Below are positions 2,457 through 53,519 of a stretch of DNA of 64,000 bases, one piece after another. Location: the NCBI GenBank assembly GCA_026874595.1, contig CM049313.1:60744659-60808658 (forward strand). The letters are read 5' to 3'. Origin of the DNA: Sipunculus nudus. Its lineage: Eukaryota > Annelida > Sipuncula > Golfingiida > Sipunculidae. The notes beneath the pieces were generated by a model that was not told the origin of the DNA, searched no databases, and saw only the letters and a list, made by a program, of their open reading frames with translations. Position 1 is the stretch's first letter. Each line of letters starts with the position of its first letter. A program made the translations under genes and the position numbers.

Positions 2457-4799
2457 ATACTGAATATACGTGGCCTATCAGAGTTTATCATATATAAAGA
2501 GTTTACCAATATATCTCTCACAGTTGTTTACATTCCCCCCAGTGCTGATAAAGACATTGCATCAAAGAAGATACAGGATATTGTTGCCCAATTAGAAGAA
2601 AAGAAACCACAAGCTCTGCATATTGTACTCGGAGATATGAACCACTGTGATCTTGATCAAGCACTACCCAACTACACACAGTACGTGAACTGTAACACAA
2701 GAGGTCACCAGAAACTGGACTTATTTTATTGTAATATTAAATCTGCTTATAAATGTGTTCAAGGTCCTCCACTAAAAAATAGTGACCATAATATGATCTA
2801 TATGCAACCTACTTACAGACGTAAACTTCAAATGCTGAAACCACGTGAAATTAATATTAAAGTGAACTCAAAGGAAGCCTATGAGACCCTACAAACATGT
2901 TTTGATCTAACAGACTGGCAAATGTTCATTGACACTTCATATGATTTAGATGAACTTACTGAAACTGTGTCTAGTTATATATCATTTTGTGAAGACATGC
3001 TGGTACCAACTAAAACCATTAAGATTTACCCGAATAACAAACCTTGGATTAATAGTGATCTAAGGAAACTTATTGTATGTAAGCACCAAGCCTTCACAAG
3101 CAATTCAGATAACAGATATGACTTACAAAAAGAAACTGATTCTGCCATTGAGAAAGCCAAACAACAATATAAAAAGAAAGTAGAAAAACTGTTCCATAGC
3201 AAGCAATCAAAAGATGCTTGGAAGGGTCTTCAGGAATTAACTGGTATAACTAAAAGCAAGAAAGAATGCTCACTGCTTGCTGAAAATGGCTATGCTGACA
3301 AATTAAATACATTCTATGCACGTTTTGATGAAAGTGACTTCTCGAAAGAAAAAGATGACATTCGGAGCAGTCTGAGAGCAAATTTAGAATCATGTGATGA
3401 TGGCATCCTTACTGATGTAACTGATGTAAACAAAGTGTTAAGTAAGATTAATGTAAAGAAAGCCTGTGGACCCGACAAAATCAGTGGCAGATTAATTAAA
3501 ACCTGTAGAAATAGTTTGTCCTTCATCATACATTACATTTTTCAATTGTCTCTCTCCTTATGTAAACTACCAAAATTATGGAAGACCGCAGAAATAATTC
3601 CAGTCGCCAAAAATAACTCTCCTAAAGTGATGAATGATCTTAGGCCTGTTGCACTAACATCTATTCTCGCAAAATCTTTGGAGCGAATAGTTCTTAATAA
3701 ATTACTTCCAATTGTTAAACCAATGCTAGATCAACATCAGTTTGCATATTCATCCAACAGATGCACAAGCGACGCAATTGCCACATTAACTCATTATATT
3801 TATCAACACTTAGACAGGGACCCCAGAAATTATGCCAGATCACTTTTCATTGATTATTCTTCAGCCTTCAATACAATACAGCCACACATTATGATCAATC
3901 AGCTCTGTAGATATAACATTCCTCTTTCCTACTGTCTATGGATTCTAGATTTTCTCTCGGATAGAAGACAACATGTTAGAACAAGCAAAGAAACTTCTTC
4001 AGATATAATCATAAATACTGGTGCTCCACAAGGCTGTGTTCTGTCAGCAGTCCTTTTTATTCTATATACAAATAATTTGTCTGTGAGCCTTTCAGATTGT
4101 AAAATTATCAAATATGCAGATGACACTGTCATTCTAGGCCTGATACACAAGAATGATGAATCGCTCTACAGGAAAACCATTCAATATGTGACTGGTTGGT
4201 GTGAGGAACACTACCTTCAGTTAAATGTAAAGAAGACTAAAGAAGTAGTATTTGATTTTAGGAGATCAAAATCTGTAATTACCCCAGTTGCTATCAAAAA
4301 TGAAGATGTTGATATTGTAGAAAATTATAAATACTTAGGATGTATTATTGACAGAAATCTGAATTGGAAAGAACATGTGTTGAATCAATCCAAGAAAGCA
4401 AACAAAAGATTATATTACCTTTATTATCTAAGAAAGCTTAATATTGACAAAACCATAATTACCATGTTTTATAATTCAGTAATTTCCAGTGTCCTTACTT
4501 ATTCACTGGAGTGCTGGTTTACAAATATATCTGATAAGTTAAAGAAACAGTTGAATAATACCAGGAAGAGAAGTAGTAGAATAACTGGTACTTCTCTTGC
4601 CACACACCAGGAAATCTGTGAAACCAAAACAATGGCCTTCATATCTAAGGTCATGAATGACAAAACACATCCCCTATATTCAGAGTTCCGTTTTTTACCT
4701 TCAGGTAAACGCCTAGATACAATATTCTGCAGAACAACTCGTTTTAAAAAATCTCTCGTACCACACAGTATTAAACACTTTAACTCACAACCCTCTTAG
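2457..4799 (+). CDS. LINE ORF2 fragment: endonuclease C-end plus reverse transcriptase
   Basis: The frame is open from 2457; the first methionine is at 2637 and gives 720 codons. Upstream of that Met the frame reads TVVYIPPSAD, and VLGDMNHCDLD spans it, which is the C-terminal half of an AP-like endonuclease (GDMN in place of the usual GDFN). The reverse transcriptase, which copies element RNA into DNA at the nick, follows: KKACGPDKISGRLIK, LRPVALTSILAKSLERIV, FIDYSSAFNTIQ (near residue 405), GAPQGCVLSAVLF (near 462) and the catalytic YADD at about 493-496. The C-terminal HFNSQPS is followed by a stop. Full-length ORF2 proteins of this group are longer; the endonuclease N-terminus is missing, so the copy cannot be autonomous. 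Assignment to CR1, L2 or Rex-Babar within the Jockey superfamily is not resolved. Confidence 0.9.
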   Translation: MLNIRGLSEFIIYKEFTNISLTVVYIPPSADKDIASKKIQDIVAQLEEKKPQALHIVLGDMNHCDLDQALPNYTQYVNCNTRGHQKLDLFYCNIKSAYKCVQGPPLKNSDHNMIYMQPTYRRKLQMLKPREINIKVNSKEAYETLQTCFDLTDWQMFIDTSYDLDELTETVSSYISFCEDMLVPTKTIKIYPNNKPWINSDLRKLIVCKHQAFTSNSDNRYDLQKETDSAIEKAKQQYKKKVEKLFHSKQSKDAWKGLQELTGITKSKKECSLLAENGYADKLNTFYARFDESDFSKEKDDIRSSLRANLESCDDGILTDVTDVNKVLSKINVKKACGPDKISGRLIKTCRNSLSFIIHYIFQLSLSLCKLPKLWKTAEIIPVAKNNSPKVMNDLRPVALTSILAKSLERIVLNKLLPIVKPMLDQHQFAYSSNRCTSDAIATLTHYIYQHLDRDPRNYARSLFIDYSSAFNTIQPHIMINQLCRYNIPLSYCLWILDFLSDRRQHVRTSKETSSDIIINTGAPQGCVLSAVLFILYTNNLSVSLSDCKIIKYADDTVILGLIHKNDESLYRKTIQYVTGWCEEHYLQLNVKKTKEVVFDFRRSKSVITPVAIKNEDVDIVENYKYLGCIIDRNLNWKEHVLNQSKKANKRLYYLYYLRKLNIDKTIITMFYNSVISSVLTYSLECWFTNISDKLKKQLNNTRKRSSRITGTSLATHQEICETKTMAFISKVMNDKTHPLYSEFRFLPSGKRLDTIFCRTTRFKKSLVPHSIKHFNSQPS

Positions 4800-20035: not shown

Positions 20036-21409
20036 CTTTCAGAATTTTCTCAAACACCGCGTCAACATTTTCCCCAGTCTTCGCCGAAAATTCATTTAAA
20101 TGAATCTTTATTTTGTAACGTTCTGATAAAAATGAGTATAAAATATCAGTTTCAGAAAATAAAAATTCAAAGCATGATCATCGACAAATAAAAAATGGAC
20201 GGAAGCAAATGGTATTTGGTGTTACATATATAATTTCAAGAATGTCTAACCATGCAATTATCGATATAATTATCCTTTACAATGAGAGTAAATTAGATGA
20301 ATACATTTTCTTATTATCAATCAAAATGAAAATATAAAGGAAGCAGTTCTTGCGTCCTAATATTTCATTATATTCTCGTTGTAACTGGCAATACAGGACT
20401 GGAAAATGAAAGATTTACCTTCATTATAGTCTATATGTTCAGAACGTTTCCACTGGCAGGTGCTCTTAGTTGTTTCGTCATACATTAAATCTATTTTATT
20501 TCCGACAATGTAAACATTCTTAACACGCTGAAATACTCCTTGTTTGTGGAGAAACGGAATCCATTCTTTGTAAACTTTGTCGTAAGAAGTTTCGTTATCA
20601 ACAGCATAAACTAGCATCACAATGTCAACACCGTCCAAGTGCCTTATAAGAAAACAGAAGCAATATATTATGACTGCCTCATCATTGAAAATTCTTGATA
20701 TTCGAATGAAGCAATTGTTGAATTCAAATATTTCTTTTGGGATTTATAATTCGTAGCGAAACAATTACAATTTGCAGTTTGAATGGCAACCATCCCTAAA
20801 GTGCATTAACTTCAGTGCAACTGATTTTCTCCAAATTGCAAACCTTTATCTTTTAATATTTACACCAAAAGGATCTCAGAACTTTCTTATATTTATTTTG
20901 CTCTTCTTCCTGATATGATATTGTTAACCTTACGTCTGAATAAGATCTTGATTGTCCTCAAGCCCAGCTGTGTCATGAACACAGAGGTGGTAGATTTGGT
21001 TGTCAATCTGTCCTTCAAGGTGAAATATCCCGACACCTCGACTTTCTTTATGTTCTTCACAAAAGGTCTCTCCAAGAATCCTTTTCCGTATGGATGTTTT
21101 ACCAACAGTTGATGCACCAGTAAGAATAACTTAAATGAAAAATGCTAATACAAACGATAATTCAGAAACAGCTGTGCTACCGGTTTTCCTGCTATTCACT
21201 TATGCAATCGTCGAAGACTATGTTGAAGGCTATCTTTATCTTCATCGAGAATCTAGCTTTTCCATGTGATTAGTTTTAAGTATTCTGCTGTGTAAGACAA
21301 GTGATTATCTGAATTTAAACTAATCCTCTTATCATATGAAATTACCTTTGAACTTTTTGCCTTTTCCATTTAGACAATCTTGCGAAGTCACGGTGCTCAA
21401 TAGGCTCAT
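20036..21409 (-). CDS. Atypical Ras/Rab-type small GTPase, four coding exons
   Basis: A membrane- or vesicle-associated GTP switch protein by family. Exons on the minus strand: 21409-21346 (start ATG; MSLLSTVTSQDCLNG then KGKKFK), 21129-20934, 20642-20419 and 20122-20036. All introns are GT-AG, 216-296 bp, and every codon split joins in frame. Motifs: P-loop GASTVGKTS (residues 26-34), DTAGLED (74-80), NKID (135-138) and FSAKTG (173-178) before a helix FEKILK. An in-frame TGA lies just upstream of the chosen ATG. Oddities: the G12-equivalent is Ser and the Q61-equivalent is Leu, and no clear switch-I Thr is seen in SRGVGIF. Both changes lower GTP hydrolysis in classical Ras. The last splice donor (GGTATGC at 20036/20035) demands one more exon; the best candidate is 19712-19690, coding a short E-KVMEDI tail and stop, total about 197 residues. 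No prenylation cysteines appear in that tail, so the end may be wrong. Exact subfamily is not recognised. Confidence 0.8.
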
Positions 21410-33650: not shown

Positions 33651-33746
33651 CTAGCTAATAAACCCGGTATGCCGGGCTGATTACCAGGGTTGGGGAGATA
33701 TATTAACTGAGGTGAGGAATGTTGGCCTTTTTTATTCTAAAAGTAA
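33651..33746 (-). mobile_element. Helitron 3' end (outer, split copy)
   Basis: On the minus strand the segment ends with a hairpin CCCGGCATACCGGG, eight bases, then CTAG followed by a host T. Hairpin plus CTRR-T is the 3' signature of Helitrons (rolling-circle elements). The element continues at 43453-44337; the 9.7-kb CACTA-like element is inserted between. Confidence 0.75.
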
Positions 33747-34101
33747 CACTATGAGAACTGGGCTATCACAAAGGGAAGGTCTGTGACCGTTTTCATCACT
33801 CCTGGTCACTGCCACGCAACAGGTAATTAGCAGTGATGGGGAGTGACTAAACTGTTCACAGACTATCACTGTGTGACCAGCAGTGATAGTTGAGCAGCCC
33901 TGGGGATCAGTTGAAGGGGTGCAACTAATTGATAATTTGCTGAGTGACCAGGAGTGACTGGCAGTGATGCTGAGTGAACATGGTTACTCCACCAGACACT
34001 AGCTTGATGAGAGGTGATAATGACTGTGACCACCAGTGATCCTTGTTGGTGGGTGATTGACAGGTAGTGACCAAGAGTGACCAGGAGTGAATCTTAGTGA
34101 T
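33747..34101 (+). repeat. Left terminal repeat with 10-bp phased AGTGA
   Basis: AGTGA begins every 10 bp in GAGTGACCAGGAGTGACTGG (from about 33942) onward for four units, and again for four units near 34066-34100. TCACT (reverse) is 10 bp apart near 33797-33811. The last few bases after 34090 differ from the right repeat. Confidence 0.85.
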
Positions 34102-34199
34102 AAGTACTGCTATTAAGCCAAAGGTACAGATGTAAATCATGGTTTATTAATCAACTCTGGACCCAGTTTCAGGTTAACAGAAATTTATTTGTACAACTT
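34102..34199. other. Interior of CACTA-like element
   Basis: Nothing recognised. Confidence 0.4.
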
Positions 34200-35420
34200 T
34201 AGAATTTTAATTTTTCCTGGGAGAGGCTGGAATACAATTTTGAAATTCAAACCTGGGGAAAAATGAGAATTCTCATTAATCCTGGAAGGAACAGGAGCCA
34301 TTCCATGCCAGATTTGAACTCTTTATCTCTACCTTTGAAAAATTTCTTCTCACATCTAAGTTTTGAAACTTAAAGAAAATGAAGCTACACAAAAAAATCA
34401 AATTCTCTTTATAAGATAAGATGCATACTATTGCAAGTTGGAATAAGTATGAAACTATCAATTTTTATCATTCTGAATTTTTATTTTGTGCCATTATTTA
34501 AATTTTAAATGGTAAATACAGGTTCTTGCCACAGAATAAAAATAAAATCACATTCTACTTTAAAGGCCAGTAATGGTTTTATTGGATGTTATAAAGAGTG
34601 TAATGCTATTTAGGTGTTTGTTTTTATTATATAAACCTTCCCATCCTATCAAAGGATATCATGTACAATAATGTAATCTCTCATGTAAATGTAGGAGAAA
34701 TACCACTGGCTATCACAGCTTCAAGTCCATTAATGCAGGCAAGTGTGATTCAGCCAGACAATCATTAGCACTGTCTTATCTGACCATCCCCACTATACCA
34801 GCTTATATACACTATTGAGGCTGTAATTAATTGTTAGTATGCTTCAAGGAAGGTTAAATGAAAAACCTGACATTTATCCATAGGCCTAAATGAAAGGCCA
34901 TACATGTGTAGCTTTGCCCTGAATTATTATGGCAGTCCCATGATACAAGATTAAGTTCTAGTGCAATATGTCATTTCTAAGCTTTTTCACGTTCATGCAA
35001 CCAGTTTAATTTCAACTCAATAGAATATGAAAACAGACCATATTAAATTTCATAATAATTAGTAATAAAAAGCGCCATGCCCAGTGCACAAGCAGCTGCA
35101 TTGAATGAATGGGCTGAACAGGCTGTGTATGCCAGGGGTGCTAGTTGTTTGCCTGCAATTTTTCAAGCAAACAGGCATATTCTGCCTCCAAACACAAAAG
35201 TATGGGTATTAGCGATATCCCATATTAATTTAGTTCTAGGGAAAATGAGAATTCCTTTTAATTGTTCCTGGGAAAACAGAATTCTCCTTTCTCTTTGGAA
35301 AAATGAGAATCAAAAGATATTATGAATTGATTTTCTTTTTTTTCCTGAGAAGAATGGGAACTCATTTTTCCCAGGAAGAGCAGAAATTCTCATTCTGCCT
35401 TGGTAGATTCTTGATCTTAG
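34200..35420. repeat. Region with inverted GGGAAAAATGAGAATTC motifs
   Basis: TTTTTCCTGGGAGAGG and GGGGAAAAATGAGAATTCTC near 34210-34285 are matched by GGGAAAATGAGAATTC, TTCCTGGGAAAACAG, GGAAAAATGAGAAT and CTCATTTTTCCCAGGAAG at 35237-35390. This resembles two ends of a short-repeat element; boundaries unclear. Confidence 0.45.
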
Positions 35421-36305
35421 AACAGGAGAGCCTACATCTCCTGTGCTCTCTCCCTTTGCTACGCTGCTTTCTGCTGTTAGACTAAAGACAAGAACCTGAC
35501 TGCACCTCTAATAATAATGGTTTTGAAGATGCTATGTTTTCCTAGGCTCCATTATAGAATAATTCTGGTGTACGTATGTAGTTGATCCAGATCTAAGCAA
35601 AAAGCTTGCTAGTTTCAAGAACTCAATCTGCCTCACCATGTATCAAAAAAATGTTCTCTCATGGGGCTTAAGAATCCAGCATGGCAAGTGAGGCCCTCAG
35701 ATTCATGTGGAGGCTGGACTGGCTTATTACATAAGACTAAACACAAGAGACAAAATGTTAGGGTGTCAAGTTCAAAGTAAATTTGGCTTATGAGGGGCCA
35801 GGGCTGTGGCACTGGCTGCATTGCTTATCTTCATACCATGAGTCTGCTGGTGGTCAGGGCTGGGATAGCCAATATACATGTTTATATAACATGTGTTCTT
35901 CATGATCCATGTGGATCGAATCTGTGAATGTTGTTCAATTTTAGAAGAGATTGGAAAGAGCAGTGATCAAAAACTTTCTGTTTACAAATTAAATTACAAG
36001 AGATGGATAAATTCATTTAAACTGTTCCCAACAATTTGCCTGAAACTGAAAGCAAATAGCAGGTCAAATTTAAAGTGAGTGAAAAGTTACTTCCTAGACC
36101 AGGGCATTCACATCTGGCAATTAGCCAGACCTCATTATTTTCTCATCAGCTTGCTGTATCACTGGTGTACAATGTTGACCTGCATGAATCTGGGCCTGGA
36201 CAGCCTGGTGTCTGCCCATGTGTAAAGCTTTTTAGGCAGTTACAGGCCAACCAGACCCAAACATCTGGCTTGCTCTGACTTGCTAGCAATGCCTTCAGCC
36301 TGTCT
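35421..36305. other. Interior of CACTA-like element, nothing recognised
   Basis: Short open frames without recognisable motifs. Confidence 0.4.
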
Positions 36306-37060
36306 ATCTGAAAAATTACTGAAAAGTTAGTGAAAATATTGAAGTCTTGCTGCACTCATGACCCTGAATATATACAGCTGACGGATATTTCAGAAGTATT
36401 GTAAAGTTACAAAAAGTCAGAAAAGTACCGTAAAGTTGCAAAAAGTACCAGTATATTGCTGCACACAAGATAAAGAATAGATATAGAAGGCAGTCACGTT
36501 TAATGGACCAAAAGATTACTGAAACATTACTGAAATGTACTAGTGTTGCTGTACCAGAATGTATAAATAGGAAAAAGAAAAGTACCAAAAGTTATCAAAA
36601 AGGCACTGAAAAATACAAAATACTGTAATGTTACTCCAATGAATAAAATATTATTGGACTCAGGACTGAATATTCATAAAGAGAGCATTTTAAAAATATG
36701 TAAAAGTAATCACAGAAATACTGAAGAGTACCAAAATGTTAGTCCAGAATGGGTCTTGCTGAACATTGAAAAGTACCAAAAGTTACTAAAAAGTACCAAA
36801 AAAATGACTGAAAAGGAACCAAACAGTTATTTAAAAGTATTAAATTGTAAATTAATAAATACACAGAAATTACCAAAAAGTTGTTTTAGACTGTCAGTTA
36901 ACTAAGCAAATTGTATACACTCTTAATCCTACATTACTGATGATGAAAAGTAACTGAAAAGTAATAAAAGAAGATACTGAAAAAGACTAAAAGTACCAAA
37001 ATGTAGCTGAAACATAAATAAAACTAAAAAATAGCCAAAAAATTACTGAAAAGACTGTAA
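36306..37060 (+). repeat. Array of about 10-bp AAAAGTACC/AAAGTTACTG units, left arm
   Basis: Runs such as AAAGTTACAA, AAAGTCAGA, AAAGTACCGT, AAAGTTGCAA, AAAGTACCAG (near 36402-36450) and AAAAGTACC, AAAAGTTACT, AAAAAGTACC (near 36771-36800) recur through the region with about 10-bp spacing. Confidence 0.65.
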
Positions 37061-38260
37061 AAATTTGCCTGTCACTTAGTTTCCCTTAGAGAAAAAATTC
37101 TTAACATGTGACCCTGGTAAATAGGTGAAGGACAAAATGCTTTAAGCCCTACAAAACTTAAAGCCCTCCTGGACATGCCCATGAACATATAAACATACCT
37201 GTATACTGAGTACACACTGTTAGGATAATGGAATGTTATATACATTTTGAAGTGGATACAGTAGTATATATAAATACAACAGAAAACCATAATAAATTTT
37301 GTATTTTAATCCATTAAAAGGGTGGGCTTTTGCCCTAGTCTGCACCACGATTTTGTCCAGTTGGCTTTGTCCAGGTAGGCATATACTGCAGGATATCTGA
37401 CACTCCATTCTATTGACTAAAAATGATGTCCTCTCCAGTATGTCTTAGTAATGTAAATTTAAACTGTCATCTTTAAATGCATTATTTTAAGTTTGTTGTT
37501 ATGTCTGCTTTTTAAATTCTAACAGTACATTAAAAAGAAACACTTATACACTCATGTAGATTGTGACATAATGAAATTTGTATAGAGAAAATCAGTAAAA
37601 ATAACATACTTTTGGTAAATGGTATAATATTGGTTATGTTTACAAATAGATCAAATGACAGGGCAACAAACAGACAGACAAAAATCAAGGTCCTGTATCA
37701 CTCATGAAACTGTCTCTTTAGAGCCGTAAGTATGATAATGATATAATACTCATATATCACAAAAGAAGAGAAATGTCACATTGAGAACCTATGTTCCTGA
37801 TCCATTAGCAGGTAACACATTTGAAATACCCCATAAAGACTATAATAAGCATCACACACCCTTGAACATGGTATATATAACTGGAATATCCAAATAAAGA
37901 TCATTGAAATCTGACCACTCTTGCAGATGTTACATGCACATTCATATGAGAAGGGGTTTGATGGCCATCTTTAAAAAAAATTAGCGGTCATTTGGATTCT
38001 TACTGGCCAACATGGTTTAGTGTAAAGAATTTTTTTTAAGTACAAGTATGCAAAATTTGATGCTTCTATCACCAACTGAAGTATTCAAGGCACACATGTA
38101 TTTTCTGGACTATTACTGAAAAGTGAAATGGATCAGATATATACAATTGAACCTCTCCTTACAGGCACTTCTGTACTGAGGGTATATTCACAGTCCTTAA
38201 CGGGGATTTTTTTCGGAATTTCCTGTTTATTTTCATTTATTTATTAGTTTCCCTGCATTC
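37061..38260. other. Interior of CACTA-like element, nothing recognised
   Basis: AT-rich sequence between the two short-repeat arms; no supported ORF. Confidence 0.4.
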
Positions 38261-38820
38261 CTATAACAGGGCTGATAGTCTGCCTGATGGCTCAACTGAT
38301 GTTGATTTGCTCATCTGAAGCTGATGTGTCGTTTCAAGCAGATCCTTTGCTTGGATCTGTAAATTTATTGATGGGTTCATAAATAAACAAATAAACAACA
38401 ATCCAGTGTAAGGTCTTTGATTGCAAGTATGTAGGTCATGAAATTCATGAACTCTTACTAAGTGCACCTCTCTATGGGGGCATCTTTTTCGTATTTTATG
38501 TAAAAATCTAATCATTATATGATTAGAAAATGTGTCCTAATATGATTACTTGCTTATAGTTAAATTTAAGCCTCGGTTATCAGTGTGATATTTACACCAC
38601 TGATGGGTTCATTTAGGCAACTGCTAATGGTCACTGAGTGCTTCAAGGTCCTTAATCCAGAAATTTGTGCATCCCATTCCACGCTTGGACCCTCAGAACT
38701 GAGCGTTTGTAAACAATTTTGAACTTCAGAGACCCTTTTCTCATGCACCTGCCTGAAAGCCCCGATATATGCAATGAAATCATGAGATAATCCTAAAGGA
38801 TCACGAATGGAGCTATATTA
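38261..38820 (-). pseudogene. Possible two-exon gene remnant inside the CACTA-like element
   Basis: Minus strand. The upstream open stretch (from about 38820, ending at 38596) contains GLSHDFIAYIGAFRQVHEKR, then VEWDAQISGLRTLKHSV and SSCLNEPISG, and meets a GTAAAT donor. The downstream stretch 38356-38261 follows TTTACAG and reads IQAKDLLETTHQLQMSK through VEPSGRLSALL to a TAG stop. Joining them is in frame (phase 0) with a 239-bp intron. No family is recognised. It may be the end of a gene carried by the element, a captured host fragment, or chance. Earlier exons were not found; a short-repeat array lies immediately upstream. Confidence 0.3.
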
Positions 38821-38950
38821 TAGTGCTTTTCAGTACTTTTGATAAATTGTTGGTACTTTTGGTAACTTTTCCATACTTTTCAGTAATTATAAAGACCCTT
38901 ACCCATACTTAAGTACTTTTGGTATTTTTCAGTAATTGTTAAGACTCCTT
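38820..38950 (-). repeat. AGTACTTTT array, right arm (inverted to 36306-37060)
   Basis: CAGTACTTTT, GGTACTTTT, GGTAACTTTT and CCATACTTTT follow each other at 9-11 bp spacing. This is the reverse complement of the units in the left arm. Confidence 0.6.
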
Positions 38951-39408
38951 TAATTAATTTACTAGAAATTATGTGCCGAAGGCGTAATTCTGTATTTCAT
39001 CTAATCATGCACAATGTGAATCAGGATATTGAGTGGACCAGATCCAGTACAGGATTTGGACTGGACAGAGTCACAATAAGGAATTGGTCTCACTCTGGGC
39101 AAACAGGTATTAGACTAGGCTTGGAATTCAGGCTGGCCTAAAACCTAATCAGGATTCTGTCTCGACCAGTTGCTGATTGGCACAGATCTGGGAATTGTTG
39201 ACAGATACTTATATGTGTGTCATATGATGTATCATGGTACACTATTGTTAGGAATCGGTTTCAATTTCATGATAGATCATCAGTAAAAATTGGATTATCT
39301 CTACTGATGAGAAATTGTCAGTTGTTTAGAGGTATAAATTTCTTGGCCATATATAGATCAGAACATCATCTCAACTGATATGTAGGCCTACATGAATGTT
39401 GAATGTTT
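38951..39408. other. Interior; possible minus-strand Helitron end at 38962
   Basis: ACTAG at 38961-38965, then GTGCCGAAGGCGT. Read on the minus strand this is a small hairpin about 10 bases before CTAG-T. The stem is short, so the call is weak. The rest holds nothing recognised. Confidence 0.25.
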
Positions 39409-40153
39409 GATGTTTCAGACTAGGACATTTTGGACTAGGACATTTCAAACTAGGATGTTTTGGACAGGCCTTTTTGCAAGGGAGGACATTTCAGACTAAT
39501 GAATGTTAATAATTACCATAAAGTAACCTTTTTAATTATAAATTTAAGCGTATAAATGTACCCATATGTTTACTGAGATTTTTCAGAGAATGAGCAATAA
39601 TACTTGTGCATCATTATATTTTTTATTCATTATATTAACATATATTAGTAAGGTGTGGACAATGGATAATGCCTATGTGATATTGATCAAATAAGTATCC
39701 GTAAAAACACCATCATAAAATTTATAACCTTTTTATGGAGATTTTTTATAGAATAAGCATTTATATAGGGGCATCATTTCTATGTTTTTTTTTTTATTTT
39801 TACAGTTTTGTTAAACATCAAAAATATTCTCTTGTCACTGGTTCACTCTTTTCTCAGTTTTTACAGTTTGCTTTCTCGCAAAAGCTGCCCGGATAAATCT
39901 GTATTTTTTTGCTTACAAATACCACAAAATGAATCCCCAATTAATCCCCATTGTTGGAGCCAAATAAATATTATACCAATAAACATATGGGTACACTGAT
40001 ACACTAAAACTCATAATTAAAAGGTAACTTCATGGTAATAATTTTCATCTGTCCAAAACATCCTCTCTTGCAAAAAGGCCTGTCCTTAATGTCCTAGTCC
40101 CAAACATCCTAGTCTGAAATGTCCTAGTCCAAAACGTCTGTGTCCAAAACATC
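39409..40153. mobile_element. 745-bp MITE with 15-bp subrepeats in its TIRs
   Basis: Left arm (39409-39590) and right arm (about 39985-40153) are inverted copies, sharing GGACAGGCCTTTTTGCAAG, TTACCAT.AAGT.ACC and CCCATATGTTTA. Near each end ACTAGGACATTTTGG-type units repeat every 15 bp (three in the left arm, about four in the right). No coding capacity. Confidence 0.7.
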
Positions 40154-41139
40154 TGGTACTACCCTACATTCAGGCTAATAATGTCATAATTCTATAACCT
40201 ACATTTCTATAAAGTAACTTAACAATTAAGTTTTTTGGTAAATGCAGACTTTTCTCTAGTTCAGGTTGTATACATTAATTTCTCCTACACAAAGCTATGA
40301 GCAAAAATTTGCAATCAATTATAATTGATAATCAGCCCATCACTATGATACACTATGTCATGGAATGAAATGACTGCTAAAAATCTGTAAAATTCCCTTA
40401 ATTGTGGAATATGTAGTGTGATAAACTGTTTCCAATAAACTTTCATGAATATTTATCTGAAAGACAGACAGACAAGAAAATATTGCTCGCAAGTCTGAAC
40501 CAAGCCAGAAAATATTCTGCCCCAGTCCAAACACAAGATGCATGTGTCTGTAAGGGCTGGAAACTGGCTTAGCTGTGCATGCACAAACTTCAGGCTGACT
40601 AGGTCCAGAGTTCAGGCCTGCCAGCACTGGACACCAGTGATACTGCAGCCCTGATCAACTGATATGATATAAATGAGGTGTGACTGAAAGTGGAATTTTG
40701 CATCACATATCCTTGGCTGAGAATCTGAGTGAGTGCTTACAAGTAATGATGGTTGGATTGGTATCCATTAAACACCCACGGGAATTTTTTTAGTCATATT
40801 AAAGCCAACAAATTATATATTTTTTTTTCAGATATCAAACATTTTTAATGTACAAAATTTCTCAATTTTTTTTCAAAACATCACTCTGATTGAACTTTGA
40901 ATGAAAAGTTTTGTGAGGAAGAGGGAACATTATAAACTCTCTTTAACAGGTTACCTGCCTGATGGTGTTTTCTTGCAATTTAAATCAACGGGGTCTTGAT
41001 AAACACTGTTCAGTGTCTTGTAAACTAAACTTGAAACAGTTTTGTCATTTGCTCAATAAATCTTAAAAAAATGGTGTTATGAATATATTGTCAATCAGGA
41101 TTAAATAGTGATGTTGCCAGAATTCTGAAATATCAGTAA
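40154..41139. other. Interior of CACTA-like element, nothing recognised
   Basis: No supported gene. Confidence 0.4.
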
Positions 41140-42326
41140 CTAGCTGATAGACCCGGTATACCGGGCTTATTACCGGGGTTGGGGAGATTTATTAACTGAG
41201 ATGTGAAATGTTGGCTCATTTTTTTTATTCTAAAAGTTAACAGAAAATATAGGTTTTCAGTGGGAAACTGTCTCCATAAGATATGTATAAACATTTTGGC
41301 ATGACTGCAGAATAACTCACGCACCTCTCTGAGGCACAACACTTCTGTGAACAGAAAACGTTTCTATGTACAGCTGCTTGTATCTTAATTTTGCCACTTA
41401 CTTTTAAATTACATGAATTCTTAACATCATACCGTCCGTCCGTATAAACTCATAATCTGGTGGAGACAGTGCGTGAGTGATCCTGCAGTCGCTCTGATAT
41501 TTTTAACATTTATTTTGTGGTTCTGTCCTTGTGGCAAGAAATTTATACCCTGGTATGTTTACCTTGATGACCTGGCCAGTGATGTTGTTGACATGGCGAA
41601 CCAGAATGAGACGTGGGGACATTCAGGTTTTTGATGATATTTGACTGGATTCTATCGTTGGATGCATAAAGATTAGGTTGATGTGAGGAACACATGAATG
41701 ATTTATTAAATGTACGTCACAAGGAAGTGTTCCTGAAGAAAGAAACAGAAATGTGCAGAACTCCCAAGTAGCAGAAGCGGACCAAATGGGACTCCATGCA
41801 GAGGTTCCGTATCCCATTTTCAGCCGCCGCAATGTTTTTTTTTCATCGTATCAGACAAATTTTGAAGCCTGAAACACCAGACACCACTCCACCCCACCCA
41901 ACCCCACGCCTGTTCCTGAAATTGGGACCTTGAATTAGGTTTTGTCATTAATCCTCCTGGGTTGAACTCTCCATTTCATAAAGCGAGAAACACATGTTTT
42001 TCTCTTTTATTGACCACGCACGTGGGTCAAATCCCTTATTGAAAGCAAGCGTTATTCATATGAACAATGGTCCTTAGTGTTAGAGGTCAAATGACCACGA
42101 TGCACGCATCCCTGGGATTGCCGAAGGTAGTTGGGCTGTGCTCGGTAAAAAAACGGAAAAATCACTCAAAATTATATGTATATTAAAAATTATTTATTTT
42201 CATATCGCCTATGTCACTGCGGGGATAATAACCTTTAAAATGATGTATGGCACAATATTGTACACAGCGCGGTTTTAGAGAACATTGCGAACAAACGTGA
42301 ACTGAATTCCTTTTATAAGTATTAGA
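41140..42326 (-). mobile_element. Helitron, complete non-autonomous copy (1187 bp)
   Basis: Minus strand. The 5' end is TCTAATACTTATAAAAGG preceded by host A (42327). The 3' end is hairpin CCCGGTATACCGGGT, then CTATCAG, then CTAG (41140) followed by host T. Insertion between A and T without target duplication, a 5' TC and a 3' hairpin-CTAG are Helitron features. There is no Rep/helicase ORF. It holds an exon-like segment also present in the outer copy. Confidence 0.75.
41513..41732 (-). pseudogene. Exon-like segment in inner Helitron, frameshifted
   Basis: Follows the acceptor-like TTTCTTTCTTCAG. Frames give LYASNDRIQSNIIKNLNVP, then VNNITGQVIKVNIPGYKFLA and EPQNKC with a TAA stop. One 1-bp deletion near the start and one 1-bp insertion near VP break the frame relative to the copy at 43473-43738. 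It may be a host exon captured by the Helitron; the source gene is not recognised. Confidence 0.4.
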
Positions 42327-43109
42327 TGTAAATGACACACAACATTATATCAAATGAGTGTGCATGCATGTGTAACTAGACAATACAAGTGCTTCCCATA
42401 CCAGAAAGTTACATTTATAATAATTACCATTTCCATAGCTGTAAAAGAATTTTTAAATTTTCTTAAATAACAAAGATATAAAACTTTCTTTAGTTATTGA
42501 ATTTATCCCAGTTATTCCTATGATGTGTTATAGGTAACATGTAACATTTCATAACCTTCAAAATACTAGTATCAGGATGAGATAATTATAAATTCAGTTT
42601 ATCTCTCTGAATAAAATGTCTTCACATTTGTATCAATTGGTCACCTGATTTTTTTGTAAATGTTTAAGAATTGTTATAATTAACAAAAATAGGCTAACCA
42701 AGCTTCCTGAATACAATGATCACATTACATGCTTGTACCATTGAGTTGAAGAGAATAAAATTCTACAAAGTGCCTTACATTAATGTATATTACTCTCTGA
42801 AGGTAATTTTACTGAGGAGATTTTTTTTCAGTACAATGCTTCCTGTTTTTTTTTTATTTGATAATCAGACCATTTATGCTAGAAAAAACATAACATAGAT
42901 ACTTGTCCTTAGTTGGATCAGTTGGTCATTCAGAAATCCTGAAAACAGCCCCATGAACAAAGGTGTGCATTAAGGAAATGTCAGTTATATTTGTTGTACA
43001 TGTATTAAGTTGACATTTGCCGAAAATTCACAGTTTTATTAAGTTAATTTGTGCATCCATAAGCAGTGAGTGCAAAGGTTAACTTAGTAGGGAGCTTCAT
43101 CACTCAGAG
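42327..43109. other. Interior of CACTA-like element, nothing recognised
   Basis: AT-rich, no supported gene. Confidence 0.4.
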
Positions 43110-43452
43110 TCACTCCTGGTCACTCTTGGTCACTACCTGTCAATCACCCACCAACAAGGATCACTGGTGGTCACAGTCATTATCACCTCTCATCAAGCTA
43201 GTGTCTGGTGGAGTAACCATGTTCACTCAGCATCACTGCCAGTCACTCTGGTCACTCAGCAAATTATCAATTAGTTGCACCCCTTCAACTGATCCCCAGG
43301 GCTGCTCAACTATCACTGCTGGTCACACAGTGATAGTCTGTGAACAGTTTAGTCACTCCCCATCACTGCTAATTACCTGTTGCATGGCAGTGACCAGGAG
43401 TGATGAAAACGGTCACAGACCTTCCCTTTGTGATAGCCCAGTTCTCATAGTG
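43110..43452 (-). repeat. Right terminal repeat of the CACTA-like element
   Basis: Inverted copy of 33747-34090, differing by one substitution and one missing base. Confidence 0.9.
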
Positions 43453-44337
43453 TAAACAGAAAATATAGGTTTTCAGTGAGATACTCTCTCAAAAAGAGAT
43501 GTACAAATAATTGTACATTTATTTTGTGGCGCTCTGCTCGTGGCAAGAAATTCATACCCCCGTATGTTAACCTTGAAGACCGGGTCTGTGATGTTAACAT
43601 TGCGAACCGGAATGAGACGCGGGGCATTCAGTTTTTCGATGATATTTAACTGGTTTTTGTCGTTGGACATATAGAGATAAGGTTGATGTGAGGAACACAT
43701 GAAAGATTTATTAAATGTTTGTTGCCAGGAAACCGTTCCTGAAGAAAGAAACAGAAATGTGCATACCTCGTAAGTAGCAGAAGCGGACCCAACAGGACTC
43801 CTTGCAGAGGGTCCGTATTCCATTTTCAGCCACCGCAACCTTTTTGTTATCGTATCAGACAAATTTTGAGGCCTGAAACCCGCCCCACCAGTCCACCCCA
43901 CCCCATCCCTGTTCCTGAAATTAGGAGCTTGAATTAGGTTTTATCAATAATCATTTCATATTGCGAGAAACGTGTTTTTCTCTTTTACTGACCACGCACG
44001 TGGGTGAGAACCTCGTTCAAATGTAAGGCCAGACATACTCATATTCATATGAACAATAGTCCTTAATAGTGTTTGAGGTCGAGTGACCACGATGCACGCA
44101 TTCCGGTCATTGCCGAAGGCTGTTCGGCTGTGCTCGGTCTTACCTCCGTGCAAGTTAGTAAAAACGGAAAAATCACTCAAAATTATATATACATTAAAAA
44201 TTATTATGCTCATATCGCCTATGTCACTGCGGGACATAATAACCTTTAAAATGGTGTATGGCACAGTTTTGTAAACAACGCGGTTTTAGAGAACATTGCG
44301 AACTAACGTGAACTGAATTCCTTTTATAAGTATTGGA
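43453..44337 (-). mobile_element. Helitron 5' portion (outer, split copy)
   Basis: Minus strand. Begins TCCAATACTTATAAAAGG after a host A (44338) and runs to the CACTA-like insertion. Together with 33651-33746 it forms a copy of about 980 bp related along its length to 41140-42326. Confidence 0.75.
43473..43738 (-). CDS. Open exon-like segment in outer Helitron
   Basis: Begins after a strong acceptor-like CTGTTTCTTTCTTCAG and stays open for about 88 codons: GTVSWQQTFNKSF, LYMSNDKNQLNIIEKLN, PRLIPVRNVNITDPVFKV, GYEFLATSRAPQNKC. The inner Helitron copy stops right after PQNKC; here the frame runs on to a TGA. The frame is also open upstream of the acceptor. Shared amino-acid pattern between two diverged copies hints at former coding. 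No family recognised. A captured host exon is one explanation; a degenerate Helitron protein is another. Confidence 0.35.
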
Positions 44338-47576: not shown

Positions 47577-47745
47577 CAGGTGTATGACCTCCTGATCTGT
47601 ACCATGCACAGCACACATATACACAGTACAAAGAACATCTTTATTGTACTTAAGCTGATATATGTCTTGCTTTAACCAAACATGTTAAAGGTTTATTTTA
47701 TCCCCAGACAAACTCGGGATACTATATAGTCCATGGGCTAGGAGG

Positions 47746-49020
47746 GGTCACCGTGCACCCCCTCTGGGATTTTATGACATAGGTATATTTAGATCCCCAA
47801 TTATATTCAATAAATGAATTAAGATGTTAACATTGATTATTTTGGGATACACTACTCTTTTAGGTCATTTAAAGACAACCGCGTCTTCCCGCACGGCACC
47901 CGCGGACAGGTAGCCTTGATAAGGGGGTAGAGATATGTAAATGCTTATAGCTCGCTTAATATTTGACATATTTACTTCAAATAAACTGCTTTATGTTTGC
48001 AAATAGTGGGGAAAATTCATTGACAATAATAATCATACGAATGTATTATGTATTTTGTTGATTAAGCAATTAATCACTATACTTATAAAATAAAAAGAAA
48101 GAAAAATGAATTTAGCAGCTTTTTCTTTCGTTTTTTTCCGTGAGTAGTTAATTTTAGAGATGATGTTGCACTTCTAAATTTCTAGTGCATTAATACATTA
48201 GTTCCTGACATTCCTACAAATTTTGTTTAAAAAATAATGAATATTTGACCATATACTCCTGCAATGAATGACCCATTGTTAATTTTATGGTATCCCTGTT
48301 TATAAGATAGATGTGATGTTCCATATTCCTCTCCAGATGCATTAATTTTCACTGTCAGAACCTGAAGGTGTTTATTGGTTTTAAAAATGATAGAAACCCT
48401 TTCTTGAGCCATTTTTAAACATATAATAATTATACAAAAAATAATCATATTTGAGCCATAATATAAGAAGGGTCACCGTGCACCCTCTCTGGTATTTTAT
48501 GACATAGGTATTTTTAGATCCCTCAATATATTCTGTAAATGAATTAACATGTTAGCATTGATTATTTTGGGAATCACTACCCTTTTAAGCCATTTAAAGA
48601 CAACCGCATCCTTACGCACGCATCTTCGGATAGGTACCCTGGATAAGGGGGTAGGGGTATGTAAATGCTTAGAGCTCGCTCAATATTTGACATATTTACT
48701 TCAAATAAACTGTATTGTATTTGCAAATAGTCGGAAAAAGTCACTGATAGATATAATAATATATATTTCTTACAAGTTTTTGGTGATGAAGGAATTAATT
48801 TTGATAGTAATAAAACATCCAGAAGAAATTTCACAGTTTTTTTATTCAAACTCTTCGCTGTTGATGATTTTACAAGATATTTTTAGACGTTTTAGTAAGA
48901 CAAGTTCTAGTTTAAGAATATATTATTCTGTTTTGATCACCCTTTTTATAACAGGTTTACGAGTTGTTCGGTGTTTCTCTCTCGATGTACCTCACCGTGA
49001 CTCTTCCCTAATAACATAAA
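47746..49020 (+). repeat. Left arm: two tandem units
   Basis: Unit 1 at 47746-48470 and unit 2 from 48471. Each has GGTCACCGTGCACCC, then TTTTATGACATAGGTAT, AAAGACAACCGC, GGGGTA and TATTTGACATATTTACTTCA. Unit 2 becomes hard to follow after about 48860. Confidence 0.75.
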
Positions 49021-51939
49021 CAGTCTTTGTTTTGAAACTAAGGGTATAAACACTAGTAAACTCTTTATCCAGGTCATTTTGAATATATAAATGTATAAGG
49101 ATATAAAATTTTCTCCAAGTATATGGACCAACCCGTGTTATGTTAACCTTTCCGAAATGTTAAGATTTTTGTCCCCATGACCCTTTTTTACCTTGTAAAC
49201 CCTTTCTGTCATATTGTGTTATCCTTTGGCCAATTTCAAAAAATGGGGTAATGTACAATGTGAAATAACTGATATTGAAGCGTCTGTCTTTATTGCACTA
49301 TTATTATTGTCTATTCGTTTACTATTTTAAAGTATCAATTCGTATAAAGTGTATATAAATAGCACTGAAAAAAAACACGCATACCTCTGCCAATAACAAG
49401 GATCACCAGTGATGGATCCTGTAAAAATTTGATGTGTGGTCCGTGAACCAAGGAATTATATTAATTTTAGGTGAGAGTAATGGTTCACGTTTCACCAACT
49501 GGATGCTTGCATCACAGGTGAGCTCAGATTACCAGACATAAGCGGTTAAATAAGTCACAACTGTGCATGCGAGTGGGATAAACCTTCTCCATATTCAGAA
49601 ATTTGCACCTTTCTCTTAGAACCTTTCACTGACGATGGTCTCATCTCCTCATAGGACCAAAATATTATCTCTTAATACCGAATATTCTTTCAAACAAAAT
49701 CATATTATGTTGATCATGGTTCCCGGTTAATATTCGTGGCGGACATCAAATAAAGACATATAAGATTGTCACGATGAAGGGGGCGAATAACCACTTACGA
49801 ACAAACTTCATTCGAGTAAAATATGGTGATTCTCTAATGATAAATACATTTAATAGCATGGAAGACATAGACCATTCTGACACCTCGATTCTGATACATG
49901 GATCGAGCCGAGACCTAATGCAGCATGAAAGCTGCCAGTGTGATAAAGTAGAAACCCTATCTTAATATAAAGGAAAATTTCTATTCCCATTAAAAAAAAA
50001 TGAACCTCACTGAAAGTCTAAGGATGTTTGCATTGAAAAGAATGTCCTGAACTGTTGGTAACATTTTACTGATTAGCCAAAGATGAATTCCCGGCAGTGA
50101 CCATATGTATTATTTTATTTAACTGATTTTTCAGCATTGAATAAATTTTGTATGAAAAATTGTATTGACACTTAAGGAAAGGATCTAAATATATATTTTA
50201 TTGAGTTCTCCCGAGAAGTCATTGTGTGCATATTAGCATATGTTTATGTAGGGACTGTATAGAAACATTAGAAACATTGGCATTTTATTCATCTATCTGT
50301 TAAATAATATTAAACTACACAATAAACTAGTAAGCGGATTCTCAACCATGTCTCCTGGCAGTCGAATGGAATGCCTTAAAAATGTGAGGCGTTAACGTCC
50401 TGCATGTATACATAGCCTTGAATGATTGAGCATTGAATTTTAGATTGGGAGTTCCATAATCTCGACCTCTCCCGGAGAAATAAGGGGTCCATTTTTCATT
50501 AACTTGACGAAAAAATACATGGTCGTTGAATTTTTATAATTCCCTAATTAAAGACTGAAATCTAAATGATTCTTCATAAAAACACGTATTTTGAGGACTG
50601 GCATAGGAAGGCAGGTTTACACGATTAACTGAACGAAATGTATTTGTGTCATGCTCCCGCTTATTTATACTTTTAAGAATAAGGATATTTTACCAAATGG
50701 TTAGCAGGCATTTTAATCTCACTGCATGATTCCAATGAATACTCTGCCATTCTTTTTGAAACGTTCTGAGGTTATAGGCCTAGGTTAATGGTTAATGTTA
50801 TAGGTTAATGACTGATTTATTCTTAATATATCTTCTAAAGACAACATGATATCCATGGTCTTCCGTTTTATAATTTCAGAAGTTAGCCTTATCATCAATA
50901 ACAAATTATTGAAGAATATAATGCATAGGAGCTAGAGAATGAATCCTCTCGAATTTCCATGTGGTATATATAAAACCCATTTCTTTTGAAAAGGTGTCAT
51001 AAACAGGTGAAATCTAATGCCAATTTTATATGTCTACAACACCATTTTACAGAAGCTGAGTTGTACCGAAATAAAATGAAATATATAGGACAAACATATA
51101 CGACACTTGGATGCAAACGTCAGAGACTGTATATTCATTAGTAATCTCAATGGTATCTGTGCTCTTATACTGTGTCCGGTGTAAGGGCACAGGCTTTGTT
51201 CATTTCTGTTTAGAACCAATAGCGTCTCTCCGTTTAATTCGTCAATTTTCGTAATGTTTACAATCAGAAATCATAAGTATGTTTTAAATAGATTCTTCCC
51301 AATGAATAGCACAGACATGATCCCCTCCCTGTATTGTACTGCCACTATGAAACCTCCGCTCCGCTGCTTTCTCGCTGCTGTTAATACATTTACTCCTATA
51401 CCACGTCCTTCCATTACTTACGCATTGAAAAGTAATCATAAAAAGTCTTCACTCTGATCCATCAATATACATTTAGAGTTGAATCTGTGATTTGTTTACA
51501 ATTTAAACTATCAAGTATGTTTCCTTGCAAGGAAATCTGAAAGGGACATGGTAAGGCATTTAAATATAAAAAGGCAACCATTGACTCAGTCATAATATAA
51601 TTGTAACAAAATATGAAAATCAAAACAATAAATACAAAAAAAAAATCAAGCAGCACCAAAGTATGTTATAAAGGTGTTTACGCCGTAATTATTGATTTTG
51701 AATAATAATTGAAACTGTTGCATATGCCTTCCTGTTCTTTCTCCTTTTGACATGACTTGAAACTTTGTGTTGATATTGTGGTACAGGACGCTACTTATAC
51801 TGTATACGAATCTAATGCACTAAGCCTAATTCACAGTAAGTAAATTGTTAATATTTGGTCTTCCATATTGTGGACAATTCATCAAAAGACTTCAGATGGA
51901 TCAGCATAACGGATTGATTTTCTGTCTATTAGAAACTTC
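49021..51939. other. Centre of the foldback-like element, nothing recognised
   Basis: No ORF with a known motif; the longest frames are 60-67 codons. Confidence 0.45.
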
Positions 51940-53438
51940 ATATTTTTATTATTTTTTATTATTAATGTGTTTATATATTGTTCCAGAAAGGGCTCTTATT
52001 ATTAAAGCCAATAAACACATTAAGGTTCAGGAGAATGACTTTTTTATAGTTTTAGGGAAGCATCACAGTGAAAAATTAATTACATCTCGACAGGAACATG
52101 GGATACCACATACATTCATCTTATATACAATATATATAGAATGGACAAGGGTCATTCACTGCATGTGTGTATGGCAAAATATTCATAATTTTATCAAAAG
52201 TATGTGTACAAGTGACAAGAACTAATGTATTAATGGATCAGAATTTTAGAAATGTCATCATCTCGAAAAAAAACTATTTCAGGGGAAAAATAAAGAAAAA
52301 AGCTTTTAAAATAGAATATTCTTTCACGATATTTTATTAATATCGTACTTAATTGTTTATCAACTAATATATATATAAAACACTTATCAAATTATTTTCA
52401 TCGGTGAATTTCTTAAGTATTTGCAGATACAATGCAGTTTATTTAAAGTGAATATGTCAAATATTAAGTGAGCTATAAGCATTTACATACCCCTACTCCC
52501 TTATAAAGGCTACCTGTCCGCGGGTGCCTGCGTAATGACGCGGTTATCTTTAAATGGCTTTAAAGGGTAGTGTATCCCAAAATAAACAGTGTTAACATGT
52601 TAATTCATTAATTGAACACATTTGGGGATCTAAAAATACCCTCGTCATAAAATCCCAGAGGGGGTGCACGGTAACCTTTCTTAAATAAAGGCTTAAATAT
52701 GATTATTTTTGTATAATATTATATGCTAAAAATGGCTCAAGTAAGGTTTTACATTGTTTTAAAAAAACCAATCAACACCTTCAGTTTCTGACAAATAACT
52801 ATTCATAGTATCAAGGAAGCTGCACAGTGAAAATTAATGCATCTGAAAAGGAACATGGAACACCATATCTATCTTATAAACAAGGGATACCATAAAATAG
52901 AATAAACAATGAGTCATTCATTGCAGGTGTATATGGTCATATATTCATAATTTTATCCACAGAAATTGTAGGAATGTCAGGAACTAATGTATTAATGCAC
53001 TAGAAATTGAGAAATTCAACATTATCTTGAAAATAAACTACTGTTGCTAAAATGTTGCGAAAAGCTGTCAAATTCAATTTTCTTTTTGGATATTTTACAA
53101 GTATAGTGATTAATTGCTTAATCATCAAAAATACATAATACATTCATATTTTAATTGTTGTCAGTGACTTTTCATAACTATTGGCAAACATAATTCCGTT
53201 TATTTCAAGTGAATATGTCAAATATTAAGCGAGCTATTAGCATTTAAATACCCCTACCCCTTTATCAAGGCTACCTGTCCGCGGGTGCCGTGCGTAAAGA
53301 CGCGGTTGTCTTTAAATGGCCTAAAAAGGTAGTGTATCCCAAAATAATCAATGTTAACATCTTAATTCGTTTATTTGACATACTAGGGGATCTAAATATA
53401 CCTATGTCATAAAATTCCAGAGGGGGTGCACGGTGACC
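51940..53438 (-). repeat. Right arm: two tandem units, inverted
   Basis: Inner unit about 51940-52676, outer unit 52677-53438. Shared with the left arm in reverse complement: TGAATATGTCAAATATTAAG, GGTAGTGTATCCCAAAATAA and GGGGGTGCACGGT. Confidence 0.75.
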
Positions 53439-53519
53439 CCTCCTAGCCCATGGACTAATATGGTTTAAGCACGGTCCGCCGCCTCGGCAGAGATTTCGTT
53501 TGGACGCGATAACTGAAAA

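Follow-up and report, generated by a model that had tools for sequence, protein, structure and literature searches.

The analyzed stretch of Sipunculus nudus DNA (64,000 nucleotides of contig CM049313.1, hereafter the window) contains, at positions 33747 to 43452, one 9,706-bp full-length copy of a family of large CACTA-type mobile elements, and this insert is very probably a recently transposed, non-autonomous cut-and-paste transposon of the EnSpm/CACTA type (CMC group). The reading builds on direct observations: the ends of the element, 3-bp target-site duplications at 19 loci, arrays of a short motif, groups of near-identical copies, and the same passenger Helitron at two sites. Judged by its sequence features, the family may be filed as EnSpm/CACTA-like, CMC group and non-autonomous, hence as a new family within an established type. 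It provides a clean natural record of recent CACTA-type transposition: the 9.7-kb copies are almost identical, the 3-bp duplications and reciprocal empty sites are preserved, and a passenger can be placed in time relative to the element copies.

The outermost bases of the insert lie exactly at 33747 (CACTATGAGAAC) and 43452 (GTTCTCATAGTG), which gives CACTATG/CATAGTG ends; the end sequence typical of the family is CACTATGAG. The left terminal inverted repeat (33747 to 34090, plus strand, 344 bp) and the right one (43110 to 43452, minus strand, 343 bp) are distinguished by a single C/T substitution and a 1-bp indel, and TAA is present on both sides (33744 to 33746 and 43453 to 43455) as the sole matching duplication at the borders among lengths of 1 to 12 bp. 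Re-measurement thus bore out the initial annotation of this DNA, which had described CACTA..TAGTG ends, repeats of 344 and 343 bp with two differences, and flanking TAA. With up to three mismatches allowed, the terminal 23-mer occurs at just two places in the window, both of them insert ends. Scanning the window for Rfam families and tRNAs produced no matches, and exact patterns from the terminal repeat had no match in viral and prokaryote collections, as expected for such a host.

A search of the whole assembly (1,426,538,692 bp in 153 contigs) with a 358-bp repeat query yielded at least 41 listed matches (58 candidates) of 95 to 100% identity; these counts are lower bounds (40 scored by the program's own count). 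All 41 scored matches start at query base 1. A 23-base end pattern with at most two mismatches detected 55 ends, 47 of them mismatch-free and three starting with CACTT or CAATA, and the reversed control detected none. Forty-four of these ends form 22 facing pairs with a spacing of 4,086 to 22,337 bp, and 11 are unpaired. The spacing is 9.6 to 9.8 kb in 10 of the 22 pairs and between 9,287 and 10,111 bp in 14. No facing pair was found at miniature-element distance (the nearest is 4,086 bp apart) under the limit of two mismatches in 23 bases, at which a short element could escape if one of its ends had diverged. We read 19 copies end to end, namely, the window copy, 17 further pairs as a whole, and another pair, C17, as two overlapping stretches, and every one has CACTATG at both ends. 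The other three pairs are those at C8:12033512-12043622, C2:85719343-85726918, and C2:68051389-68061052; of the 11 unpaired ends, four were followed inward for 9.2 to 9.6 kb. Hence, the genome-wide repeat search that the initial annotation had recommended uncovered further copies that all end at the same base (41/41 and 19/19), its description of a large element is supported (4.1 to 22.3 kb in the 22 pairs), and the contrary case that it had named, in which the two repeats are independent short elements, did not occur among the 22 pairs.

Each of these 19 copies is flanked by a perfect 3-bp duplication, so the duplication predicted for other loci is indeed present there. In 18 copies, the oriented duplications are TAA (three), TTA (three), ATA (two), TAT (two), AAA (two), TCA, TGT, GAT, TTG, TAG, and TTT, which makes 11 different oriented sequences, or 8 when the two strands are pooled; TTA flanks the nineteenth copy. 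Of the 18 duplications, 13 start with T and 12 are followed by G, a bias that is a preference and not a fixed motif. Duplications of 4 or 5 bp were absent from the 16 copies tested.

The third EnSpm/CACTA feature found here, besides the CACTA...TAGTG ends and the variable 3-bp duplication, is the presence of subterminal short-motif arrays. The first 359 bp of the insert contain 15 AGTGA/TCACT sites with eight pairs exactly 10 bp apart (array at 33796 to 34100, plus strand), and the mirror array at the right end has 15 sites with seven such pairs. In 2,000 dinucleotide shuffles, the means were 2.2 sites and 0.01 pairs, and not one shuffle reached 15 sites or eight pairs. Both repeats of all 18 copies tested have kept the arrays, with 12 to 16 sites and five to eight pairs each. 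Furthermore, divergence between subfamilies, measured against five other copies, is 1.0 to 4.4% in the outermost windows and 0.8 to 14.1%, often above 4%, in interior 250-bp windows. This suggests that the ends are under constraint, with the caveat that a few interior windows are equally low and that conversion between the two repeats could mimic the effect.

The insertion was taken to be recent from the outset, and the copies elsewhere in the genome agree. The window copy is 99.87% identical over 9.7 kb to a sibling at C8:57016683-57026387, and the two sit in different targets. A second group comprises five copies on four chromosomes that are 99.7 to 99.9% identical. Three C2 copies reach 100.0% identity (rounded) across 9.6 kb, and since they are still identical, a transposase is probably still present in the genome. 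Two of the three, both 9,664 bp long, 100.0% identical (rounded), and in the same orientation, lie 34 bp apart in C2:66932721-66952082, each with a separate 3-bp duplication. Close relatives share a chromosome in 6 of 22 pairs, compared to a shuffle mean of 2.3 (24 copies, p = 0.03), which lends weak support to local jumps. The identity between the two repeats of one copy varies from 343/343 (4 of 18 copies) downward, and therefore, some copies are older and not all are young.

Helitrons have a 5′ TC, a 3′ hairpin followed by CTAG, and an insertion site between A and T. All of these features were found both in the flanks of the insert and in a passenger copy inside it. The flanks are the two halves of an interrupted outer Helitron, which on the minus strand starts with A/TC... 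and ends with ...CTAG/T (slashes mark the borders); flank alignment and ends place its 3′ part at 33651 to 33746 and its 5′ part at 43456 to 44337. The inner, non-autonomous Helitron occupies 41140 to 42326, likewise on the minus strand, and in both Helitron copies a minus-strand hairpin lies 8 nt ahead of CTAG. Once one TAA is removed and the flanks are joined, their sequence can be aligned across the junction with the copy at 41140 onward. The initial annotation had claimed an empty site in the same window with one mismatch. This is correct for the junction itself (GTAAACAG versus GTTAACAG), but over the whole aligned stretch only 133/154 positions are identical (86%); in the main aligned stretch, the two Helitron copies are 81% identical. 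The flanks are a Helitron and its copy at 41140 to 42326 is uninterrupted, as claimed; however, that copy lies inside the insert, and the empty site is therefore paralogous and not an empty allele.

The inner Helitron is itself an insertion into this element lineage. It is present in the window copy and in the 99.87% sibling and absent from all 16 non-sibling copies tested, which have the intact site ATCAGTA/ATGTAAATG (the slash marks the insertion point) or a near variant. Because both siblings have it in common but the 16 others do not, the element moved as a whole unit. The Helitron probably entered one lineage after the split from copy c12, which is 94.6% identical where aligned, and before the siblings parted, and then travelled with the element.

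In agreement with the non-autonomous state that had been proposed, no genes were recognized by Pfam, open reading frame (ORF) length, or codon-position comparison. The interior ORFs of the window copy do not exceed 112 amino acids (aa), except for a 130-aa ORF that extends across the right repeat, and none of its 19 ORFs had a Pfam match over the cut-off; from the other copies, two ORFs of a 22-kb copy were run against Pfam. The longest stop-to-stop ORF in the 13 copies tested is 178 aa. In nearly all ORFs of at least 40 aa that are comparable in at least three of seven copies, substitutions are spread about evenly over the codon positions, and frameshifts and stops are numerous. Two stretches with a third-position excess were rejected as coding signals: that at 38778 to 38909 overlaps a conserved DNA array, and that at 37533 to 37697 has stops or frameshifts in other copies.

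A transposase was not recognized in the copies examined (19 of 22 pairs read end to end) either, and the check suggested in the initial annotation, for an autonomous EnSpm copy sharing these ends, has so far given nothing: a genome search that ignored introns gave seven Transposase_21 matches, all at least 0.43 Mb from the listed ends. Four of them are in uninterrupted frames of 549 to 973 aa, and the three frames run against Pfam also matched DUF1258, once just below the cut-off. The 7.5 kb around the intact Transposase_21 gene nearest an end showed no clear inverted-repeat ends. Two of the matches, C8:57458013 and C2:44916544, lie in frames that stay open for 973 and 858 aa (the first was run against Pfam) within DNA that is 99.6% identical over 3.4 kb; this pair is perhaps another recently active EnSpm-like element.

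In our model, a transposase made elsewhere would be supplied in trans and recognize the CACTATG ends. A DNA-binding subunit or domain would probably bind the AGTGA sites in both long repeats, many of which are one helical turn (10 bp) apart, and this phasing predicts assembly of the complex on a single face of the helix. Excision of the element would then be followed by re-insertion at a cut staggered by 3 bp. Action in trans is known for Spm/En proteins, according to excerpts of PMC2613891. Several observations weigh against our assignment. The searches gave no transposase that has these ends, and therefore, membership of the superfamily is argued solely from the ends, the duplication length, and the arrays. 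The Transposase_21 match nearest to any listed end is 0.43 Mb away, and the 7.5 kb around it contains no 10-bp-phased AGTGA pairs. The repeats of 344 to 358 bp far exceed the 10 to 54 bp of the published elements compared, and within-copy repeat identity is not uniformly high (323/343 in one copy).

The varied 3-bp duplications fit EnSpm/CACTA and argue against Transib, PIF/Harbinger, animal TRC, and Chapaev3. Transib and RAG-like elements generate 5-bp duplications and were rejected, as none was seen in the 16 copies tested, and PIF/Harbinger elements duplicate TWA and were rejected because 12 of 19 duplications are not TWA. In length, the PIF/Harbinger duplication is also 3 bp (PMC2213677, in excerpt). 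The CCC ends and 2-bp duplication of the animal TRC elements do not occur here, and these were rejected as well. A Chapaev3-type element, an animal cut-and-paste transposon of the CMC group with CAC..GTG ends and TWA duplications between A and T, would account for the TAA in the window and for the ends (PMC4079192, in excerpt), but we consider it highly improbable and rejected it: TWA makes up only 7 of 19 duplications, the others including GAT, TGT, TAT, AAA, TTT, TAG, and TTG, and the flanking bases are mixed, with A before the duplication in 7 of 18 copies and T after it in 1 of 18, against the 12 with G.

It is also very unlikely that the element is autonomous with a transposase split into short exons, hence without a long ORF. 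Such a gene would suit the aligned interior stretches, which are 85 to 95% identical over kilobases among subfamilies, as well as the common length of 10 of the 22 pairs and the two short frames with third-position excess; against it stand the comparable ORFs that lack a codon-position pattern and are broken by frameshifts and stops, the explanation of the two exceptions by array overlap and a broken frame, and the Pfam result for the 19 window-copy ORFs. Membership in another CMC lineage, as yet undescribed and defined by long array-bearing inverted repeats and by a transposase that is not of the Transposase_21 type, would explain why phased arrays lie inside the long repeats and why no Transposase_21 match lies at or near any listed end. 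We regard it as rather unlikely, since every structural feature tested also fits EnSpm, an absent transposase is no evidence of a new one, and there are just seven Transposase_21 matches from a search blind to introns. A composite macrotransposon, in which two short elements flank host DNA and move it jointly, is hardly credible: the interior does lack recognized genes and contains older-looking transposon pieces, but no short free elements with these ends exist among the 22 pairs, and interior blocks are common to many copies in similar order, which makes the interior largely the family's own. A small but real chance remains for a CMC-group lineage that has its binding platform inside the near-identical, phased 344- to 358-bp repeats, propagates only large elements (22 pairs, 4.1 to 22.3 kb) but no miniature ones, and depends on a transposase that has ceased to share the element's ends or belongs to a type not yet described.

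Besides the Helitron, the interior of the window copy, which we read as a non-autonomous EnSpm/CACTA element, contains two internal segments. The larger (36160 to 40639) has CACTGGTGT-type ends and contains AAAAGTW arrays in inverted orientation, in part with a spacing of 9 to 11 bp, and both of its boundaries fall within sequence that can be aligned with copies c12 and c13. It may be an older CACTA-like element that became fixed in the family, with the reservation that comparable short end pairs also arise in shuffled sequence. Within it, a 0.75-kb segment (39409 to 40153) has imperfect inverted ends made of a 15-bp tandem unit (GACTAGGACATTTTG). The stretches holding both segments align to other copies, c12 and c13 among them, and only the Helitron is a demonstrated late insertion. 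The idea of a true element of about 4 kb swollen by these three nested insertions proved wrong, as 10 of 22 pairs are 9.6 to 9.8 kb long.

The 22-kb family member, C3:83175181-83197517, has 10.9 kb that do not align to the window copy, and within the member lies an open frame whose 246 aa match the sulfotransferase family (PF00685, 2e-50). This protein has at least 150 matches in the genome (240 candidates); among the matches listed, its four closest relatives (76 to 93%), one of which contains stops, lie within about 43 kb to the left of the 22-kb copy on the opposite strand. In the simplest reading, the element would have landed next to a sulfotransferase cluster, from which a duplicate then entered it on the spot; nothing in the data shows that the gene was ever carried along by the element.

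Elsewhere in the window, positions 47724 to 53461 hold inverted clusters of 0.3- to 0.7-kb repeats that are 77 to 87% identical and, on each side, direct at a spacing of about 725 to 760 bp; this is possibly another long-repeat element. A 780-aa open frame at 2457 to 4799 contains a reverse transcriptase domain and is LINE-like, and a minus-strand open frame at 20360 to 20743 contains a partial Ras-family domain.

Among known systems, CACTA ends, variable 3-bp duplications, and subterminal arrays are described for EnSpm/CACTA elements in excerpts of PMC2613891 and PMC8978399. The family resembles plant Spm/En and the 20.5-kb soybean element Tgmt* (PMC2613891) in its CACTA ends, 3-bp duplications, direct and inverted subterminal arrays, and large size. 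Tgmt*, as excerpted there, has 13-bp inverted repeats, arrays that lie outside them and differ by side, and a putative transposase, whereas the family described here has its arrays within the near-identical repeats, which measure about 344 bp, and no transposase was recognized. The initial annotation had noted that such elements are mainly described from plants. This needs correction, as excerpts of several reports document CACTA-type elements in animals (PMC1636069 and PMC4298943), EnSpm in a table for a clam (PMC8905726), and CMC elements across molluscs (PMC10294476). The animal TRC elements SmTRC1 and Spongebob (PMC1636069 and PMC4298943) are likewise CACTA-related, and SmTRC1 insertions were also documented through paralogous empty sites; in the same excerpts, TRC elements differ from our family by CCC ends, 2-bp duplications, and repeats of 10 to 54 bp. 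Chapaev3 (PMC4079192, in excerpt) shares the CAC..GTG ends, the 3-bp duplication, the animal host, and a recent burst of a non-autonomous form, and differs by TWA duplications between A and T and a size of 0.3 to 2.5 kb. A bivalve survey, in the part available, lists only two curated autonomous CMC consensus elements (PMC10294476), and therefore, such families may be under-described. We do not claim that the family is unprecedented; it is set apart from the published examples compared by its long, array-bearing repeats.

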